Below, piece after piece: positions 51,868-60,227 of a DNA stretch of 64,000 bases (positions are counted from its first letter, which is position 1; every line of letters begins with the position of its first letter). Below the pieces are notes generated by a model. That model was not told the DNA's origin. It did not search any database and saw nothing but the letters and a program-made list of their open reading frames with translations. The DNA is from Rahnella variigena (lineage in GTDB: Bacteria > Pseudomonadota > Gammaproteobacteria > Enterobacterales > Enterobacteriaceae): contig NZ_NSDJ01000001.1 in the NCBI RefSeq assembly GCF_003610915.1, forward strand, positions 3,162,001-3,226,000, given 5' to 3'. The translations under genes were made by a program, and so were the position numbers.

Positions 51868-52458
51868 GTGAGCAGCATTAAATTGATCGTTGGACTGGCC
51901 AATCCCGGCGCAGAATACGCCCAGACCCGCCATAACGCAGGGGCCTGGTATGTTGATCTTCTCGCCCGTCAGCACAACCAGCAGCTGAAAGAAGAAAGTA
52001 AGTTTTTTGGTTACACCGCGCGTCTGTCGCTGGCCGGTCAGGACGTCCGTCTGCTGGTGCCGACCACCTTTATGAACCTCAGCGGCAAAGCGGTTCTGGC
52101 GATGGCGCAGTTCTACCGCATCGAGCCGGACGAGATTCTGGTCGCGCATGATGAGCTGGATATCCCTCCGGGCATGGCGAAAATCAAACTTGGCGGCGGT
52201 AACGGCGGTCACAACGGTCTGAAAGATATTCAGAGCAAATTCGGTAACAACCCGAATTTCTACCGTTTGCGTATCGGAATCGGCCATCCGGGCGATAAAA
52301 GCAAAGTAGTGGGATTTGTGCTGGGCAAGCCTCCAGCCAGTGAACAGAAGCTGATTGATGATGCAATTGATGAGTCATTGCGCTGCACTGAATTGCTGAT
52401 GAAGGAAGGTCTGGAAAAAACCATGCGTCGTCTGCATACCTTTAAAGCCGAGCTTTAA
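51868..52458 (+). CDS. pth: peptidyl-tRNA hydrolase
   Basis: Releases tRNA from peptidyl-tRNAs dropped by ribosomes. It has 196 residues (E. coli 194). The catalytic His is in YAQTRHNAG (about residue 22), with the other family motifs [21 protein letters not shown] and [12 protein letters not shown]. In E. coli pth is followed directly by ychF; here an 8-kb block separates them. Confidence 0.98.
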
Positions 52459-52544: not shown

Positions 52545-54449
52545 TCAGAGCGGCTCGTCGAAACGCAGTAAACGTCCGGCATTACCCAGCACCAGCAACG
52601 TGCTCAGATTATGCAGCAATGCGGCGATCAGTACGCCCGCCACGCCGAGCAATCCCATTGCAGCAGCAGCCATCACCACCAGCGTCCAGCCCAGTCCGAT
52701 GAATACGTTGATTTTCAGCGTCCGGCGGCACGCACGGCTCAGGCGGACACACGTTCCGAGACGACGTAAATCGCTGCCGATCAGCACCACATCGGCAGAG
52801 GCCAGCGCGATATCACTGCCGCCTGCGCCCATCGCAATCCCCACCACGCCAGCCTTCAGCGCCAGAGAATCATTGATGCCGTCACCGACCACCATCGGAC
52901 GGTAGCCCTGGGCAATTTCAGCGGAGACCTGATGCAGTTTATCTTCAGGTAAAGCCTGAGCGACCACGTCACTGATGCCCAGTTCACCGGCAATACGATG
53001 CGCCACACTGGCGCGGTCGCCGGTCAGTAAAAGCTGTCGTTGCAGCCCCAGCTGACGCAGTTCGGCTAACGCAGTCTGCGCTTCAGGCCGTAAAGAATCT
53101 GCCAGCAGCAACCAGCCAAGAAAACGCCCGTTCAGCGCCAGACCGACCAGCGGCCCGTCATGCTCAGGGACATCACTCACCGCGACGTTGTTCTGGCTGA
53201 AAAACGCCGGACGACCCAGCAATGCCTCGCCCTGCGCAGTTTGCGCCCGCACGCCCATGCCCTGCTGTTCTGAAAACTCTTCCAGTGGTAAATATTGTTC
53301 CCGGGGAAATAACTTCGCCAGCGCGCGGCTGACCGGATGGCTGCTGGCCGCGCCGAGACTGGCCGCCAGAACAAGCACTGCATCCGGGGATTCGTTTTCC
53401 TCCAGCACCGTTTGTTGCAGATGCAGTTCGCCGTGCGTCAGCGTGCCGGTTTTATCCACCACAATGGCGTTGAGATCGGCCAGTTCTTCCAGAAAAGCAG
53501 AGCTGCGGATCAGGATCCCGTGACGCGCCGCGACAGCAATACCGGCAATTGCGGTCGCGGGTGCGGAAAGCACCAGCGCACATGGACAGGCCGCCACCAG
53601 CACCGCCAGCATGGCGTGGGCATCACGCGTGATGAACCAGGTCGCCGCCGCGATCAGCAAAATCAGCACCAGATATTGCCCGGCATAACGCTCGAGCAGA
53701 CGGGTGATCGGCGGTTTGGCATGTTCAGCTTTTTGCATCAGCGCAATCACTTTACCCAGCGTGGCATCCGCGCCGGTTCGCGTGACTTCAACAGACAGCA
53801 ATCCGTCGAGATTAATGGCGCCACCAAAAACATCGTCTCCTGCACGGGCTTCCTGTGGCACGGATTCGCCAGTGATAGGTGCGGTATCCAGACTGGCACT
53901 GCCGGAGATGACACGCCCGTCGGCGGGCAGCCGGTCGCCAGCGCGGACTTCAACCCGGTCGCCGGTTCGCAGCTGATGGTTGTCGATCTCTTCAATCTCA
54001 CCATCGGGCAAAATCCGCCGTGCGCGGCTGCGGGTCAGACGGCTGAGCGCATCAATGGCTTCCTGCGAACCGATCACACTACGTTCTTCCAGAATATGAC
54101 CAAAAATCATAATGCCCGGCAGCAATGCGGCGGTCATCAGGTCGCCGGTCGCCCACGCGCCGAGCATCGCCAGTGCAATCAGCTGATCGGTAACACCGTG
54201 CAAACTCGGGCTGCGCAAGCTGTAAATCGCCGAACGCAATACCGGCACCGCCACCAGCAAAGACGCCACGCCGAACAGAATCTGCCCGACATCGCTTTGC
54301 TGCGGGAACAGCCACTGCCAGATCCAGCCGCACAGGAGCAAACCGAACGCGGTCATCGCCAGAAGCAGCTGCGCCGACAGGCTCCGCTGTTCATGACGCG
54401 TCAGCAGCACGCTTTTCGCTGCCGGTTCTTCAGAAGTAAAAGAAGTCAC
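52545..54449 (-). CDS. P1B-type metal-transporting ATPase without N-terminal metal-binding domain
   Basis: This 634-residue inner-membrane ATPase has the actuator motif TGES (193-196), the metal-site CPC motif in the sixth core helix (288-290), the phosphorylation site DKTGT (332-336), the heavy-metal SHP motif (370-372) and the hinge GDGIND (522-527). The last-but-one helix carries HNLSTLLV (613-620), a variant of the HE/HD-G-S/T pattern of zinc/cadmium/cobalt P1B ATPases, so the likely cargo is a divalent metal, probably zinc or a relative. There is no CxxC or His-rich domain at the N-terminus; the His-rich tract is on the SPFH neighbour instead. It is the last gene of a four-gene operon with three SPFH proteins, 12 bases after the preceding gene. 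Confidence 0.9.
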   Translation of the reverse strand: MTSFTSEEPAAKSVLLTRHEQRSLSAQLLLAMTAFGLLLCGWIWQWLFPQQSDVGQILFGVASLLVAVPVLRSAIYSLRSPSLHGVTDQLIALAMLGAWATGDLMTAALLPGIMIFGHILEERSVIGSQEAIDALSRLTRSRARRILPDGEIEEIDNHQLRTGDRVEVRAGDRLPADGRVISGSASLDTAPITGESVPQEARAGDDVFGGAINLDGLLSVEVTRTGADATLGKVIALMQKAEHAKPPITRLLERYAGQYLVLILLIAAATWFITRDAHAMLAVLVAACPCALVLSAPATAIAGIAVAARHGILIRSSAFLEELADLNAIVVDKTGTLTHGELHLQQTVLEENESPDAVLVLAASLGAASSHPVSRALAKLFPREQYLPLEEFSEQQGMGVRAQTAQGEALLGRPAFFSQNNVAVSDVPEHDGPLVGLALNGRFLGWLLLADSLRPEAQTALAELRQLGLQRQLLLTGDRASVAHRIAGELGISDVVAQALPEDKLHQVSAEIAQGYRPMVVGDGINDSLALKAGVVGIAMGAGGSDIALASADVVLIGSDLRRLGTCVRLSRACRRTLKINVFIGLGWTLVVMAAAAMGLLGVAGVLIAALLHNLSTLLVLGNAGRLLRFDEPL

Positions 54450-54461
54450 AGGGCAAATACC

Positions 54462-55505
54462 TCAGGGTTGAGAGGATGGACGGTCTGGCCCCGGCAGGAT
54501 CAGATGCGCGTCGTCATGGGGGTCAACCGCCGTCACGCTGCCGGCATGAGCCAGGATCGCAGGCATCCGCTCGCGCCACAAACGCCACAACAATTCAGGA
54601 GAATGATCGTTTGCCAGTTGCACAATCGTCGCGGTATCGGTGGAAGCCCGCGCAATCTGTTCACTGGCTTTGGCCTGTGAAACCTGTAAGGCGCGATCTG
54701 CCGACTGAACAGCGTCCTGATGCACACGAGCCGCCTCATTAGTGGCGCTGGCGATGTTTTGCTCCGCCTGCTGACTGGCAGTCAGAACGGCATTAAAAGC
54801 ATCAACCGCCGCAGGCGGCAAAGAAGACTGCACATCAACACGCATGACTTCAATACCGGTGCTGCTGCCCGCCGCATTCAGCGCGGCGAGTTGCTGATTG
54901 ATGCCCTGACGCAAATCACCGCGCAGCCGCTCGCGTCGTTCGGCGATATTGCTACTGTTACCCACCATTTCTGGTCGTGCGACCAGAATCGTGTCGAGGT
55001 CGCGTGAGGCACAAATCGCCACCGCCGCGTGTTCGGTTAAGCGATCCAGCGCCGGTAATACATGCCCGCCCTGTAACACAAACGCCACCGGATCCGTGAT
55101 GACGTAATACACCTGCACATCCAGCTGGACCACGCCGGAATCACCGGTCAGCAAATATCCGGCACCGGCTACCGCGTCACTTTTCTCGCCGCCGGTATTG
55201 GTCCACGCGGGCACAATGTCTTTTCTCAGCAAGGCTGTAACATGGTGTTCGATCACCCTGTCGGCGGCGGGTAATATTTCCACCTGCTCCAGCGGTTCGG
55301 GCCACGCCAGCAGCAGACCGGCACCTGCCGTGCGTGATACGGCTCCGAAGCGCATCACCACCGCGCGTTTGTCCGGCTCAATCTGGCGGACATTGGAGAA
55401 CAGCCAGCTGGCGGCGGCAATCAGCGTTATGGCAAATAAGGCCAGATACGCCATCCTTCCCGCCTGAAACCAGGCATTGCCCTGAAAACGGGCCAGCGGA
55501 TTCAT
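54462..55505 (-). CDS. SPFH-domain membrane protein, HflK/HflC-like (third of three)
   Basis: This 347-residue protein has one N-terminal membrane helix (about residues 18-37) followed by an SPFH (stomatin/prohibitin/flotillin/HflKC) domain starting IEPDKRAVVMRFG and containing the HflK-like stretch YLLTGDSGVVQLDVQVYYVI. From about residue 235 to 300 it has an Ala/Gln-rich coiled coil (QQAEQN, then ASEQIARAS). Such proteins build large membrane rings or scaffolds, as HflKC does around FtsH. It is not the hflK/hflC of the hflX operon, given its metal-ATPase context. ATG overlaps the upstream stop by 4 bases. The coiled-coil and ring role is inferred. Confidence 0.85.
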   Translation of the reverse strand: MNPLARFQGNAWFQAGRMAYLALFAITLIAAASWLFSNVRQIEPDKRAVVMRFGAVSRTAGAGLLLAWPEPLEQVEILPAADRVIEHHVTALLRKDIVPAWTNTGGEKSDAVAGAGYLLTGDSGVVQLDVQVYYVITDPVAFVLQGGHVLPALDRLTEHAAVAICASRDLDTILVARPEMVGNSSNIAERRERLRGDLRQGINQQLAALNAAGSSTGIEVMRVDVQSSLPPAAVDAFNAVLTASQQAEQNIASATNEAARVHQDAVQSADRALQVSQAKASEQIARASTDTATIVQLANDHSPELLWRLWRERMPAILAHAGSVTAVDPHDDAHLILPGPDRPSSQP

Positions 55506-56545
55506 GGATGTGGCTCGTTATTGGCGGCGGGTAAAACCGGCGGGCCTTCGACTAGCTGTCTGAACGGTGCGGCATCGGTACGCAATACAAGCTGTGTGCC
55601 GGGCGTGATCACGCTGTTGAGCGTATCGAGCGAGCGCAGCAAATCGTACAACGGGGGATTACCGGCCCACGCTTTGGCGTAAATCGCCGCACTTTGTACC
55701 TGCGCCTGCGCTTCAATATTGGCGGCGTTAACCGACGCATCGGCCTTAATCACGCGGGCATCGCGCTCGGCGGAAGACCGGATTTCGGCCGCCTGACGTT
55801 TGCCTTCAGCAGAGCGCTGGGTGGCGATGGTTTCGCGTTCAGCACGCATACGATCTACGGTTGCATCCAGTGTCACGGAAGGCAGCGTCAGGCGCTCAAC
55901 GCCAACCTGCACCAGTTCGATGCCGTAGCTGTCGAGTAACTGGCGGGCAATCTGGTCATGCAGATGCTGTTCAAAACCGGAAAGACGAATTTTGCTGGCG
56001 TCGGTATTCACCAGATCAGCCAGCGCAAAACCGCTGGTGGTGGTTTCCAGCGCCGAGCCAATAAACGTGCGTATCTGCGCGGCAGCCATATCCGGCTGGT
56101 TTTGTACCGCACGGATAAAACGCTGCACATGCTGAGCATCGTTTTTCACCTGCCAGACGGTATACGCCTGCACGATGATCCGCAGGCCGTCGCGCGTGCC
56201 AACATCCTGCAAACCGCTCGACGTGGTGCGGATGCGTAAATCTACCGGAATGGCAGTTTCCAGCGGCACCGGCAGATGCCATGCCAGCCCGGGATTCAGC
56301 AGCACCCGTACCGGATCACCAAATCGGGTGATCACCATCGCTTCGCCGGAACGCACCTGTACCAGACAGGCAGACGCGGCAATCAGCGCCACCAGCACGA
56401 TGGCAACCGACGCGCGCCGCCAGAATTTCGGCGCAGCGGGTCCGGAATGCGCGTGGTGATGATGGTGATGTCCGCCACCGTGATGATGCACGTGTTGGGC
56501 ATCGTGGTCATGGTCGTGGGATTGAGTATGTTGGGGATCACTCAC
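55502..56545 (-). CDS. SPFH-domain membrane protein with histidine-rich N-terminus (second of three)
   Basis: This 347-residue protein has an SPFH domain (start VRSGEAMVITRFGDPVR) after one membrane helix at about residues 45-64. The first 33 residues contain 15 histidines (positions 6, 10, 12, 14, 18, 20-22, 26-31, 33), interspersed with Asp, a pattern of zinc/nickel/cobalt-binding tracts; it faces the cytoplasm if the topology is like other single-pass SPFH proteins with short N-terminal segments. The C-terminal half (DRMRAERETIATQRSAEGKR) is the HflC-like coiled coil. GTG start overlaps the upstream stop by 4 bases. A metal-gathering role is inferred from the tract and the ATPase neighbour. 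Confidence 0.87.
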   Translation of the reverse strand: MSDPQHTQSHDHDHDAQHVHHHGGGHHHHHHAHSGPAAPKFWRRASVAIVLVALIAASACLVQVRSGEAMVITRFGDPVRVLLNPGLAWHLPVPLETAIPVDLRIRTTSSGLQDVGTRDGLRIIVQAYTVWQVKNDAQHVQRFIRAVQNQPDMAAAQIRTFIGSALETTTSGFALADLVNTDASKIRLSGFEQHLHDQIARQLLDSYGIELVQVGVERLTLPSVTLDATVDRMRAERETIATQRSAEGKRQAAEIRSSAERDARVIKADASVNAANIEAQAQVQSAAIYAKAWAGNPPLYDLLRSLDTLNSVITPGTQLVLRTDAAPFRQLVEGPPVLPAANNEPHP

Positions 56546-58500
56546 CGGGTAGTCTCCGCTTTAACAGAATGCGCCGCTTTATCCGCACCGGGCGTAAATG
56601 GCAGGGTGAAATTTCTCAGATCCAGAACCGGCGGCGTTTCGCCACCAATACGGCTGTCGACAATCAAAACTTTTGGATGTTGTTGCATCGCCAGCGTCAG
56701 CTGGCTGAAATAACGCTCATTCAGGAACGACTGCCCGCCAGCCTGATACGCCTGATTTTCCGCGTTAAACCGCAAGGTCATCACCTGCGCCTGATCGAGA
56801 TTTTCATGACTTTGTGCCGTGGCAGCATCCAGCGCCAGACGGGAAAATTGCTGCGCGGCATTCAGCTGCTGCGCGGCCTGTCCTTTCTCACCGGCAATCG
56901 CGCTTTGTGCCAGGATCTGCGCGGCCTGTACGCCATGATAAGCATCCGCTGCCCCTGCTGGCGGATGGATGGATTCGATCACCGTCGCCAGCAGTTCCAC
57001 ACCGCTGTGGAGATTATCCAGCTGGCGTTGCACTTTCTGGCCGATATCGGCGGCAAGGCGGGTCTGTTCGCTGCCCAGCAGATTGTCGAGCGTTCGGGAG
57101 GAGAAATCATGCACCAGCACCTGATTGGCGATACTGCGGATCAGCACCGGCATATTTTCGGTGTGATACAAACTCGCCATTGCTGCGTCATCGTTCATGC
57201 CGATGCGGTACACAAACCGCACGTCCATATCCATGATTTGAAAGCTCTGCCGGTCATTGCCCGCGCTGGCGATAATTTGTGATTTGTCGCTGCTGTGGCT
57301 GGAATCCCATAACCGGTTGGCGCTTTCCGGCGCGGGGCCTTCGGCGGTATCGGCAACCTCAACCGGCGATGCCGTCGCCGGTTCTTCCGCGCCGGTGGTA
57401 AGTTCATGCACTTCGCCGTTGTCAACCATTTGCGTATGCCCGAAAGGCCACGGCAGACCGAGATGCAAACCAGGTTGCCTGACCGCGACCGGTTTCCCGA
57501 AGGATTCATAAATCCCACGCTGCGTCAGCGGGACTTCACTGACACCGGTCAGCAGCCAGCCCGTCAGCAGTAAGAATGCGGCCAGCGGCAACAGCGCGCG
57601 GCGGATAAAATGGAATGCCCAGATCTGGCGCAGATCGATGCCGAAATGCTGATGCAATTCGTTCTGCACAAACTGCAGCGGACGCGGCGGCCAGCAAATT
57701 TGTGCTGCCAGCAGGCTGCCCGCGATAAACTCAGGCTCTTTGTCCTCACGCGGTGGCGAAAACAGCGCCATCAGCGCGCGCAGGAAAAGTTCCAGCGCCA
57801 CCAGCGCCGGCAAAATTCCCGTGAGCATAAGCAAATGCGCGGGCCAGACCGCCGTGCCACGTGCAAACATCACGCCGGCGGCACTCAGTAGCAAAACGCC
57901 AATCAGCATGCGCAGCAGCGGTGCCAGTCTTGCGGCTTCCGGCCATTCCTGCGGATTTTTTAACGTCCAGTGACGTTCAAGCACCAGCACCGCAAATGCG
58001 CAAAGAATGAAGAATGATCCGGCAAAATATCCCGCATCCCCTGCTTCGTTAGCGGGTAAAGGCAGTTGCCACAAAAGAAAGATGAGCAGTAATGCGGCTA
58101 ATGCTGGAAGTGCCTGAAAGAACACGTGCGCATCGACATAACGCAACAGCGGGCGCACGCGAGCTGAAGCAGTCAGACGACGGAGAAAAGCGGAAGGTTT
58201 TTCCGGCAAAACGGGTTCAGCCGGAGATGCAAACTGATGCCCGCGCCAGCGGGTAATGCGTCGCGCACATTGCAGGGAGGCGGCGCAAACCCACAGGGCA
58301 GCCATAATATTGCCGGTCACCCAAGGCCAGACTGAGTCAGGGGAAACCATATACAGCATCAGCAATATCAGATACAGCACGCTGCTGATCACCATAATGC
58401 CGTTGATAAGCCCGGTCAGCCAGCGTGTGTGGGAGGCGGCCACCTGAAAACGCAGAGGTTTAACGGCGTCATCAGCCCCGGATGCCTTGTTTGTGCTCAT
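56542..58500 (-). CDS. seven-helix membrane protein fused to an SPFH (HflK-like) domain
   Basis: This 652-residue protein begins the operon. Predicted helices lie at about 28-52, 60-78, 127-148, 157-176, 195-213, 220-246 and 301-320; the SPFH domain follows from about residue 322 (VPLTQRGIYESFGKPVAVRQPGL begins the core, cited by position) to about 560, with a low-complexity Glu/Ala/Ser linker near 365-405. The late part (QILAQSAIAGEKGQAAQQL) is coiled coil. Normal HflK has a single helix; the six extra helices are unlike any HflK I know. GGAG is 6 bases before the start and is involved in the leader structure. The 4-base overlap with the next gene shows coupling. Confidence 0.85.
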   Translation of the reverse strand: MSTNKASGADDAVKPLRFQVAASHTRWLTGLINGIMVISSVLYLILLMLYMVSPDSVWPWVTGNIMAALWVCAASLQCARRITRWRGHQFASPAEPVLPEKPSAFLRRLTASARVRPLLRYVDAHVFFQALPALAALLLIFLLWQLPLPANEAGDAGYFAGSFFILCAFAVLVLERHWTLKNPQEWPEAARLAPLLRMLIGVLLLSAAGVMFARGTAVWPAHLLMLTGILPALVALELFLRALMALFSPPREDKEPEFIAGSLLAAQICWPPRPLQFVQNELHQHFGIDLRQIWAFHFIRRALLPLAAFLLLTGWLLTGVSEVPLTQRGIYESFGKPVAVRQPGLHLGLPWPFGHTQMVDNGEVHELTTGAEEPATASPVEVADTAEGPAPESANRLWDSSHSSDKSQIIASAGNDRQSFQIMDMDVRFVYRIGMNDDAAMASLYHTENMPVLIRSIANQVLVHDFSSRTLDNLLGSEQTRLAADIGQKVQRQLDNLHSGVELLATVIESIHPPAGAADAYHGVQAAQILAQSAIAGEKGQAAQQLNAAQQFSRLALDAATAQSHENLDQAQVMTLRFNAENQAYQAGGQSFLNERYFSQLTLAMQQHPKVLIVDSRIGGETPPVLDLRNFTLPFTPGADKAAHSVKAETTR

Positions 58501-58550
58501 GTCTGCTCCGGCAGAGAAAAAATAACCCGCGACGCGGGCACGGAGCCAGC
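58501..58550 (-). promoter_or_regulatory. structured leader of the SPFH/ATPase operon
   Basis: Read on the minus strand just before the first gene: CCCGC-GTC-GCGGG (58538-58526) followed by TTATTTTTT is a rho-independent-terminator shape. GCTCCG (58546-58541) can pair with CGGAGC (58510-58505), which contains the ribosome-binding GGAG. A third stem, TCTGC/GCAGA (58515-58502), puts CGGA in its loop and competes with that pairing. It could be an attenuator or ribosome-site switch, or simply the terminator of the upstream SulP gene. Confidence 0.55.
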
Positions 58551-58745
58551 AATTACGCAGTCAGATGAGCGTAACCGTATAACATTACAGAATTTTCAGC
58601 GATATGAATTTGGCCGTTTTTTTGCCACGAATTGTAAGCATTTATCAGCAAGGCGGGACGTCCGGCAGATTGGTTTTCTGCCAGCCGTTTTTATAAGGAA
58701 AGTCACATAAGAGGTGCGCCATTTTCAGGCGACACCATGAGGATT

Positions 58746-60227
58746 TCAGAGAGTATCTTCCGCGACATAATATTGCGGATCGTCGAGTTCATGCGAGCAG
58801 AATGGTCCGGCTTTCTTAAGCAGACTTATGCAGTCATGACTCAGATGGCGCAGGCGGATGCTTTTACCGGCTTCAAGATAACGCGTCGTCAGCTTATCAA
58901 TCGCCTCCACCCCGCTCGAATCCATCACCCGCGTACCGGCAAAATCCAGCACCACATTTTGCGGATCGTTTTCAGGATTAAACAGCTCGGCAAAGGTTGC
59001 GGCAGAGCCAAAGAACAGCGGCCCGTCCAGTTTATATACCGCCAGGTCGCCTTTGGTTTTGTGCTCACGAATACGGATACGCGCCTGCTGCCAGGCGAAA
59101 ACCAGCGCCGAGATAATCACACCGCTGATCACCGCCACAGCCAGATCGGTGAAAATGGTAATGACGGTAACAATCAGCATCACCAGCACATCGGCTTTCG
59201 GCATACGGCGCAAGCGGCGCAACGAACTCCACTCAAAGGTGTTGTAGCAGACAACCAGCATAATCCCGGCCAGCGCGGCAACCGGCAGCAGACCTATATA
59301 TCCGGAGAGACTGACCACGAACAAGATCAGCAAAATAGCGCCCACCGTACCGGAAATGCGTCCGCGACCGCCGGACGTGAAGTTAATGATCGACTGCCCG
59401 ATCATTGCACAACCGGCGAAACAGCCAAACAATCCGCAAATCGTATTTCCAGCACCCTGCGCAATACTTTCGCGGTTACCGTTACCTTTCTGATTACCCA
59501 TTTCATCGAGCACTGTCATGGTCAGCAGCGATTCAATCAAACCGACCAGCGCGATGACGACCGCATACGGCAACACGACTTTCAGCATTTCAGCATTGAA
59601 CGGAGCGACCGGCAGGCTGAAATGCGGCAACGCGCCGGAAATATCCGCGAGATCTCCCACACGTAAAGTATGCAGATTAAAGCCAATCGCGACGGCGGAG
59701 ACCACAATCAGCGCAGCCAGCGAAGACGGAATGATTTTGGTCAGTTTAGGGAACAGCACCACCACCAGAATCGCCAGCAGAACCAGCCCGTACATCAGCG
59801 GTCCCTGCCCGGCAATCATGTGTAACTGCGCCAGCATAATGACAATCGCCAGCCCGTTCACAAAGCCGTGAACCGCGGGCAACGGCACCAGACGGATAAA
59901 TTTACCGAGGCGGAAAACGCCAATCAGGATCTGAATGATCCCGGCAAAAATCGTCGCCCACAGGACGTATCCCATGCCGTGCTGTGCCGCCAGACTCATC
60001 AGCACCACCACAATAGAACCTGCCGCGCCGGAAACCATGCCCGGTTTGCCGCCGAACAGCGCGGTCACCAGCCCGATAATAAACGCCGTGTGCAGACCGA
60101 CAATCGGCGACAACCCGGCCACCAGCGAGAACCCCACCGCTTCCGGGATCATCGACACCGCCACCACAAATCCGGCCAGCGTTTCATTCTTCACTTCTGA
60201 CAACTTCAAACCACGCAGGCTAAACAT
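58746..60227 (-). CDS. SulP-family anion transporter with STAS domain
   Basis: This 493-residue inner-membrane protein is of the SulP family, with about 11-12 helices. Early segments are PEAVGFSLVAGLSPIVGLHTA and GLLPVAALAGIMLVVCYNTF; the C-terminal STAS domain includes VVLDFAGTRVMDSSGVEAID, with the Asp-Ser-Ser that is phosphorylated or structural in other STAS proteins. It carries an inorganic anion such as sulfate or bicarbonate, or a dicarboxylate; this cannot be decided from the sequence. It is shorter than and distinct from DauA at 41109. It is 245 bases upstream of the SPFH operon, with no clear terminator in between except the leader hairpin. Confidence 0.87.
   Translation of the reverse strand: MFSLRGLKLSEVKNETLAGFVVAVSMIPEAVGFSLVAGLSPIVGLHTAFIIGLVTALFGGKPGMVSGAAGSIVVVLMSLAAQHGMGYVLWATIFAGIIQILIGVFRLGKFIRLVPLPAVHGFVNGLAIVIMLAQLHMIAGQGPLMYGLVLLAILVVVLFPKLTKIIPSSLAALIVVSAVAIGFNLHTLRVGDLADISGALPHFSLPVAPFNAEMLKVVLPYAVVIALVGLIESLLTMTVLDEMGNQKGNGNRESIAQGAGNTICGLFGCFAGCAMIGQSIINFTSGGRGRISGTVGAILLILFVVSLSGYIGLLPVAALAGIMLVVCYNTFEWSSLRRLRRMPKADVLVMLIVTVITIFTDLAVAVISGVIISALVFAWQQARIRIREHKTKGDLAVYKLDGPLFFGSAATFAELFNPENDPQNVVLDFAGTRVMDSSGVEAIDKLTTRYLEAGKSIRLRHLSHDCISLLKKAGPFCSHELDDPQYYVAEDTL

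Follow-up and report, generated by a model that had tools for sequence, protein, structure and literature searches.

The stretch of Rahnella variigena DNA analysed here (contig NZ_NSDJ01000001.1; 64,000 nucleotides, referred to as the window) carries a four-gene operon that corresponds to the hmtA cluster of Pseudomonas aeruginosa (PA2434-PA2439). It encodes three SPFH proteins (TMS, SPC and SPK, genes 1 to 3) and, as gene 4, an HmtA-type P1B ATPase. Zinc uptake is very probably the purpose of the operon; that it is a zinc-starvation import unit in which a dedicated SPFH assembly acts on the pump is given somewhat better than even chances. The import-unit reading rests on orthology and gene order, the co-occurrence of TMS and pump, published zinc-starvation data and Zur-like boxes, and it is supported by an SPFH tree with three clean clades, a CDF-like predicted fold, a separate family of CDF-SPFH fusions and a conserved His arm.

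This operon type is already known by name and regulation in Pseudomonas. The orthology, co-conservation, paralog make-up, predicted fold, His-arm conservation and Zur-like boxes were observed in this analysis; the co-occurrence in 14 genomes, the ancestry of the trio, the CDF-like fold, the Zur-like boxes and the conservation of the His arm are new. An earlier reading made from the letters alone (the sequence-only reading) knew of no described precedent for the composition, which the hmtA cluster corrects. It had also linked the operon to metal, and orthology to HmtA, the Pseudomonas zinc-starvation regulon and the Zur-like boxes uphold that link. The purpose is most likely uptake in zinc starvation, its idea of an SPFH assembly that would store or gate metal for the pump stays a hypothesis, and its interpretation overall is partly supported. 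The likeness of the seven-helix part to a zinc transporter was no part of that reading.

Orthology to the hmtA cluster

The proteins of genes 1, 2, 3 and 4 are 49, 73, 62 and 74% identical to those of the P. aeruginosa PA7 copy, which has the same gene order and was found through an SPC scan of named genomes. Because published gene names and order match, the PA7 copy is PA2439-PA2435, with PA2435 being HmtA. Against the 74% shared with PA7 HmtA, the next P1B pump in a family sample of 149 genomes stands at 38%. A copy of ZntA or CopA was rejected on this identity (38% at best to other P1B pumps of the sample) and on differing residues in the last two helices.

Both copies combine an HmtA-type pump lacking an HMA domain with a His arm on the HflC-like protein. 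In PA7, genes 3 and 4 are separated by a small extra gene without a Pfam match (the PA2436 position), the pump is followed by a DUF4946 gene, and the pump itself has a His-rich N-terminus, which the Rahnella pump lacks.

The zinc-starvation response, Zur binding in vitro and the import claim come from papers, cited here from excerpts. PA2434, PA2435, PA2437, PA2438 and PA2439 are upregulated 5.6- to 14.4-fold in a znuA deletion (Pederick et al. 2015, PMC4542158), and Zur with zinc shifts the PA2439 promoter in vitro (Ducret et al. 2021, PMC8531726). In the absence of zinc, HmtA and its neighbours increase, at p values between 0.011 and 0.42 (2025 preprint, PMC11761036). PA2437-PA2439 also go up when N-acetylcysteine acts as a chelator of zinc (PMC9431628), and HmtA goes up with calprotectin (PMC8557868). 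Reviews describe HmtA as an unusual importer of zinc and copper (PMC10393844, PMC8456098). No role for the SPFH proteins with the pump was found in the open-licence literature.

Co-conservation and distribution

In the family sample, TMS proper occurs in five genomes (weakest E 5.7e-119; the sixth match drops to E 9.5e-4), and the HmtA-type pump occurs in the same five at 65-100% identity. The phylum sample of 398 genomes gives the same picture: TMS in 11 genomes (weakest E 8.9e-205; next match E 1.1e-28) and the pump (E up to 1e-120) in the same 11, at 68-100% identity. Two genomes are shared, and the union is 14 genomes; neither gene occurs alone at the pump cut-offs used (E 1e-60 for the family, 1e-120 for the phylum, where a weaker lone relative would go unlisted). 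Candidates were scored per genome, namely the top three of a first look in most cases (phylum and class samples) and up to eight (family sample).

The neighbourhood search that the sequence-only reading proposed comes out in its favour: in 14 of 14 genomes the four genes stand in the same order on one strand. With plasmid and named-genome copies included, the full set in this order is present at 30 of 31 loci. The exception, in Aquibium (L017), is a different cluster and is excluded from the 30-locus counts below. Loci L013-L016 and L018-L029 were found via gene 2, whose presence there is by construction; Rahnella-type genomes contribute near-copies at 10 of the 30 loci. Chance or mis-called genes were rejected on the open reading frames, the Pfam matches and the same order at 30 of 31 loci.

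The distribution across genomes is patchy. In a class sample of 369 genomes, TMS proper is found only in the window's own genome (next match E 9.3e-19, SPFH part only), and no near match to the operon was seen in E. coli genomes. Copies lie on plasmids typed conjugative (Klebsiella aerogenes, Burkholderia ubonensis) and on large plasmids typed non-mobilizable (Paraburkholderia, Rhizobium). On the Paraburkholderia sprentiae plasmid (L014, 1-2436 and 4798-5244), zinc and copper handling are both represented next to the operon, by a metal ABC transporter and the gene of a PCu(A)C copper chaperone. In genome G019, gene 2 is split into two open stretches of the same frame (L060, 8211-8215), which may reflect a decaying copy or a wrong assembly.

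Zur-like boxes

A Zur-like box precedes gene 1 (Table 1). The scoring matrix was built from four native sites, all of this genome, at genes that we take to be rpmE2, a COG0523 gene, znuA/znuCB and a second zinc ABC transporter. The box ranks second of 63,979 window positions, and its score was reached in 13 of 2000 shuffles of the upstream stretch, which preserved single-base composition only. All 10 aligned Rahnella-type loci conserve the block in which it lies. Upstream of TMS, at least 12 bits are reached at 19 of 30 loci (best 23.2), the 10 near-copy Rahnella-type loci being among these 19; at L018, L024 and L026 the top score falls on the same stretch read at a shifted position. The PA7 upstream region, of a promoter type that binds Zur in vitro, scores 7.0 bits.

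Between the box and the start of gene 1 lies a terminator-like hairpin followed by a T run (58525-58539, minus strand). Its stem is only partly kept among Rahnella-type loci; it could end the transcript of the upstream gene or act as a leader attenuator.

Composition of the SPFH trio

Pfam and NCBIfam confirm the three SPFH proteins and the P1B ATPase without a metal-binding domain, as first read from the letters. Band_7 (PF01145) scores 57.6, 106.8 and 74.3 bits in genes 1, 2 and 3, respectively (cut-off 23.6). In a tree of 80 SPFH parts (quick search, SH-aLRT support only), SPC falls on the HflC side, and TMS and SPK group together (support 99) on the HflK side. TMS, SPC and SPK each form one clade of 17 (support 100), all apart from the sampled HflK and HflC, and the nearest outside row to SPC is the HflC-like gene of the Aquibium cluster (96). 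By this placement the trio consists of an HflC-like protein and two HflK-like sister paralogs, and the two HflK-like subunits probably arose from one duplication.

Canonical HflK/HflC membership was rejected on the separate clades and the equivalog cut-offs: genes 1 and 3 score 54.9 and 92.0 with the HflK model TIGR01933 (cut-off 159.4), and gene 2 scores 100.9 with the HflC model TIGR01932 (cut-off 134.4). The genome has its own adjacent hflK-hflC pair (C1:242860-244571) and another SPFH gene at 1978483; the operon trio is therefore an extra SPFH set. The HflK/HflC-FtsH assembly likewise combines HflC-like and HflK-like subunits, and HflK/C is the best structure match of the TMS model (Foldseek, E 3.6e-10). 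The operon departs from it in having a pair of HflK-like paralogs, of which one bears a six-helix membrane domain, and in encoding the trio with a pump and not beside hflX-type genes.

The six-helix domain of gene 1

The proposed fusion of seven membrane helices with an SPFH protein in gene 1 agrees with the prediction of seven helices and the Band_7 match. Six helices form one domain, and a single helix (residues 294-317) directly precedes the SPFH domain. The membrane part models as a possible CDF zinc-transporter fold. Because profile comparison gives no support, the CDF reading rests on predicted structure, and homology of the domain to CDF at the sequence level is not supported. Compared with CDF zinc transporters such as YiiP and ZnT, the domain has no Pfam match (Cation_efflux, PF01545, none up to E 1) and no profile similarity, and no conserved His or Asp occurs in its helices 2 and 5 among 57 sequences, where CDF proteins have metal residues.

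True CDF-SPFH fusions exist as a separate family. On the Aquibium oceanicum plasmid NZ_CP018172.1 (L017, 6367-7911), a true CDF domain is fused to an HflK-like SPFH part, and this fusion heads an HflC/HflK-type cluster with PPIase, HMA-type P1B pump and copper-chaperone genes. The search for relatives of this fusion gave 1,642, and among the matches listed both domains are present in 120 of 120. The layout resembles that of the operon: a transporter-like domain with an HflK-like SPFH part, then genes of HflC-like and HflK-like type, with a P1B pump farther along. The Aquibium CDF domain, however, keeps the H/D/H/D residues that gene 1 lacks, and its pump, which follows the PPIase gene, is 33% identical and has two HMA domains. 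The link between CDF-SPFH fusions and a P1B pump rests on this single locus. No fusion was found in the 398 phylum genomes at E 1e-70, in a search that had no positive control and shows little; the plasmid search gave, apart from the record of the query itself, a single match, confined to the SPFH part (E 1e-40).

Pump chemistry and the His arm

Gene 4 matches E1-E2_ATPase and Hydrolase in Pfam, with no HMA match up to E 1, and exceeds the cut-offs of TIGR01525 and TIGR01512 (494.9 vs 313.5 bits for the latter). The HmtA-type pump has the CPC and DKTGT motifs and an HN pair in the last helix at 30 of 30 loci. At the positions where five further P1B pumps from the family sample carry Lys (penultimate helix) and Asp (last helix), the window pump and three orthologues have Thr and His. 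In ZntA, Lys and Asp at these places serve zinc binding and as counter-charge. Because Thr and His replace this ZntA-type pair, a different transport chemistry is plausible, as judged from the residues. ZntA-type P1B ATPases share the CPC, DKTGT and HP motifs and the TIGR01512 score with the operon pump; the latter differs in lacking the HMA domain, in these two residues and in its low identity to them.

The sequence-only reading's His-rich second SPFH subunit holds, with the tract at the N-terminus of SPC. At least eight His occur in some 20-residue stretch before the membrane helix at 27 of 30 loci. Basic residues directly before the SPC helix suggest that the arm is cytoplasmic, on the same side as the pump N-terminus. 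The pump itself has at least four His within 20 residues ahead of its first helix at nine of 30 loci, seven of which also have the SPC arm. (Counts cover 45 residues upstream in the open frame and may include a few before the true start.) Three loci lack the SPC arm; L013 and L061 have a His-rich pump, and L029 has neither.

As to the further suggestion that the SPFH tract replaces the missing pump domain, the tract is conserved, but the pumps with their own His-rich N-terminus, mostly alongside the SPC arm, together with the locus that has neither, show that the arm is not a simple stand-in for the missing domain. SPC arm and pump N-terminus may be interchangeable places for a His tract, as far as L013 and L061 indicate, which are close relatives in the tree.

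Proposed mechanism and alternatives

On release of Zur repression, the HmtA-type P1B ATPase would be made and would move zinc, perhaps also copper, inward. One HflC-like and two HflK-like subunits would form a dedicated SPFH assembly, a ring or dome that arches over a patch of the inner membrane in the manner of HflK/C, with the pump as its main client. The CDF-shaped domain of gene 1, lacking the CDF metal residues, would probably act as a partner for structure or gating. Incoming metal would be taken up or buffered by the numerous His arms of the HflC-like subunit, which are predicted to face the cytoplasm. A fuller version is tentative and rather doubtful: an SPFH cage of three subunit kinds would enclose the HmtA importer in a membrane patch of its own, the metal-dead CDF domain would dock to or gate it, and dozens of His arms under the cage would catch the entering metal.

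Several points weigh against the import unit. On regulation, the window box scores below all four native sites (14.0 to 25.8 bits in leave-one-out scoring), and at 11 of 30 loci the score stays under 12 bits, at four of these under 2. In the published excerpts, the Zur site at the P. aeruginosa cluster is weak (E 0.11; PMC4542158), and hmtA mRNA is low throughout, with no repression by added zinc (PMC8531726). One review excepts hmtA from Zur binding and states that the import claim rests on overexpression and needs confirmation (PMC10393844). On the proteins, profile comparison of the gene 1 membrane domain with CDF gives a probability of 0.3, and the Foldseek top 50 for the better TMS model contain no CDF. 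The locus with neither His tract does not fit, and physical contact between trio and pump is a prediction. As a separate observation, the paper that the review cites for its exception (PMC8531726) has Zur with zinc shifting the promoter of PA2439, the first gene of the hmtA locus.

The main rival, judged rather unlikely, holds that the trio consists of zinc-starvation modulators of FtsH, a zinc protease. The trio would replace or join HflK/C and would shield the pump or turn FtsH on zinc exporters, with no direct movement of metal. All three are SPFH proteins related to HflK/HflC, papers annotate the SPFH genes of the P. aeruginosa cluster as FtsH modulators (PMC4542158, PMC11761036, PMC9431628, in the excerpts), and the substrates named for FtsH include the P-type ATPase MgtA (PMC13220708, likewise). 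The trio nevertheless falls below the equivalog cut-offs and in clades of its own, the genome keeps its own hflKC, and modulation of FtsH alone leaves unexplained the CDF-like domain, the His arm and the fact that the trio was never found without this pump in the samples.

Export by the pump is improbable. Here it would load zinc or copper into periplasmic or membrane enzymes or would detoxify, with the SPFH proteins as helpers. P1B ATPases are usually exporters according to the review excerpts (PMC10393844, PMC8456098), the pump scores above the threshold of TIGR01512, a cadmium-type family, and copper-chaperone genes lie beside the Paraburkholderia copy; that copy also has a metal-uptake ABC transporter beside it, however, zinc-starvation induction and the Zur-like boxes fit uptake, and the HmtA group departs from the five related pumps in the last two helices. 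Least probable, with very little weight, is that trio and pump share an operon for joint regulation only, without acting together. SPFH proteins do organise membrane patches generally, and sharing an operon is no proof of contact; set against this, pump and TMS were never separated in the 14 genomes, and the order is the same at 30 loci.

Transition-metal-importing P-type ATPases are rare and contested, and HmtA is the usual example, its direction awaiting confirmation (review excerpt, PMC10393844). If the SPFH neighbours are inseparable from HmtA and one of them is zinc-transporter-like, tests of HmtA alone may cover part of a complex. The operon offers a new candidate client for the question of what SPFH assemblies enclose besides FtsH. 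Should the doubtful fuller version, with the pump inside an SPFH cage, be true, CDF-SPFH fusions that keep their metal sites would form another branch of the same build, and SPFH-enclosed metal transporters a general class.

Operon anatomy and flanking genes

The coordinates are collected in Table 1. The open reading frames confirm the four minus-strand genes and their junctions as first described, namely two 4-base overlaps (genes 1 to 2 and 2 to 3) and then a 12-base gap. Gene 2 is 91-95% identical to the copies in nine Rahnella genomes.

Table 1. Features of the operon and its upstream region (window positions)
Feature	Position	Strand	Description
Gene 1 (TMS)	56542-58500	minus	652 aa; six-helix CDF-like membrane domain + HflK-like SPFH protein; orthologue of PA2439
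Gene 1, residues 17-251	57748-58452	minus	CDF-like six-helix domain (predicted fold); no sequence-level support
Gene 1, residues 318-610	56671-57549	minus	SPFH domain + coiled coil
Gene 2 (SPC)	55502-56545	minus	347 aa, GTG start; HflC-like SPFH protein with His-rich N-terminal arm; orthologue of PA2438
Gene 2 His-rich arm, about residues 6-35	56441-56530	minus	From sequence; conserved at 27/30 loci
Gene 3 (SPK)	54462-55505	minus	347 aa; HflK-like SPFH protein; orthologue of PA2437
Gene 4 (ATP)	52545-54449	minus	634 aa, GTG start; HmtA-type P1B ATPase without HMA; orthologue of PA2435 (HmtA)
Pump CPC motif, residues 288-290	53580-53588	minus	Alignment and motif check
Pump His613-Asn614, last helix	52608-52613	minus	His at the place of Asp in five related P1B pumps
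Zur-like box upstream of gene 1	58569-58585	minus	12.7 bits; scores below each of the four native training sites

The operon is flanked by what are presumably pth (51868-52458, plus strand) and a SulP-type gene (58746-60227, minus strand). In a genome of the same genus (G035; L155, 7605-15595), the operon is absent between the same SulP-type and pth flanks, and an ABC-transporter set, an MFS transporter and a two-component pair stand there instead. The place looks like a site of gene turnover.

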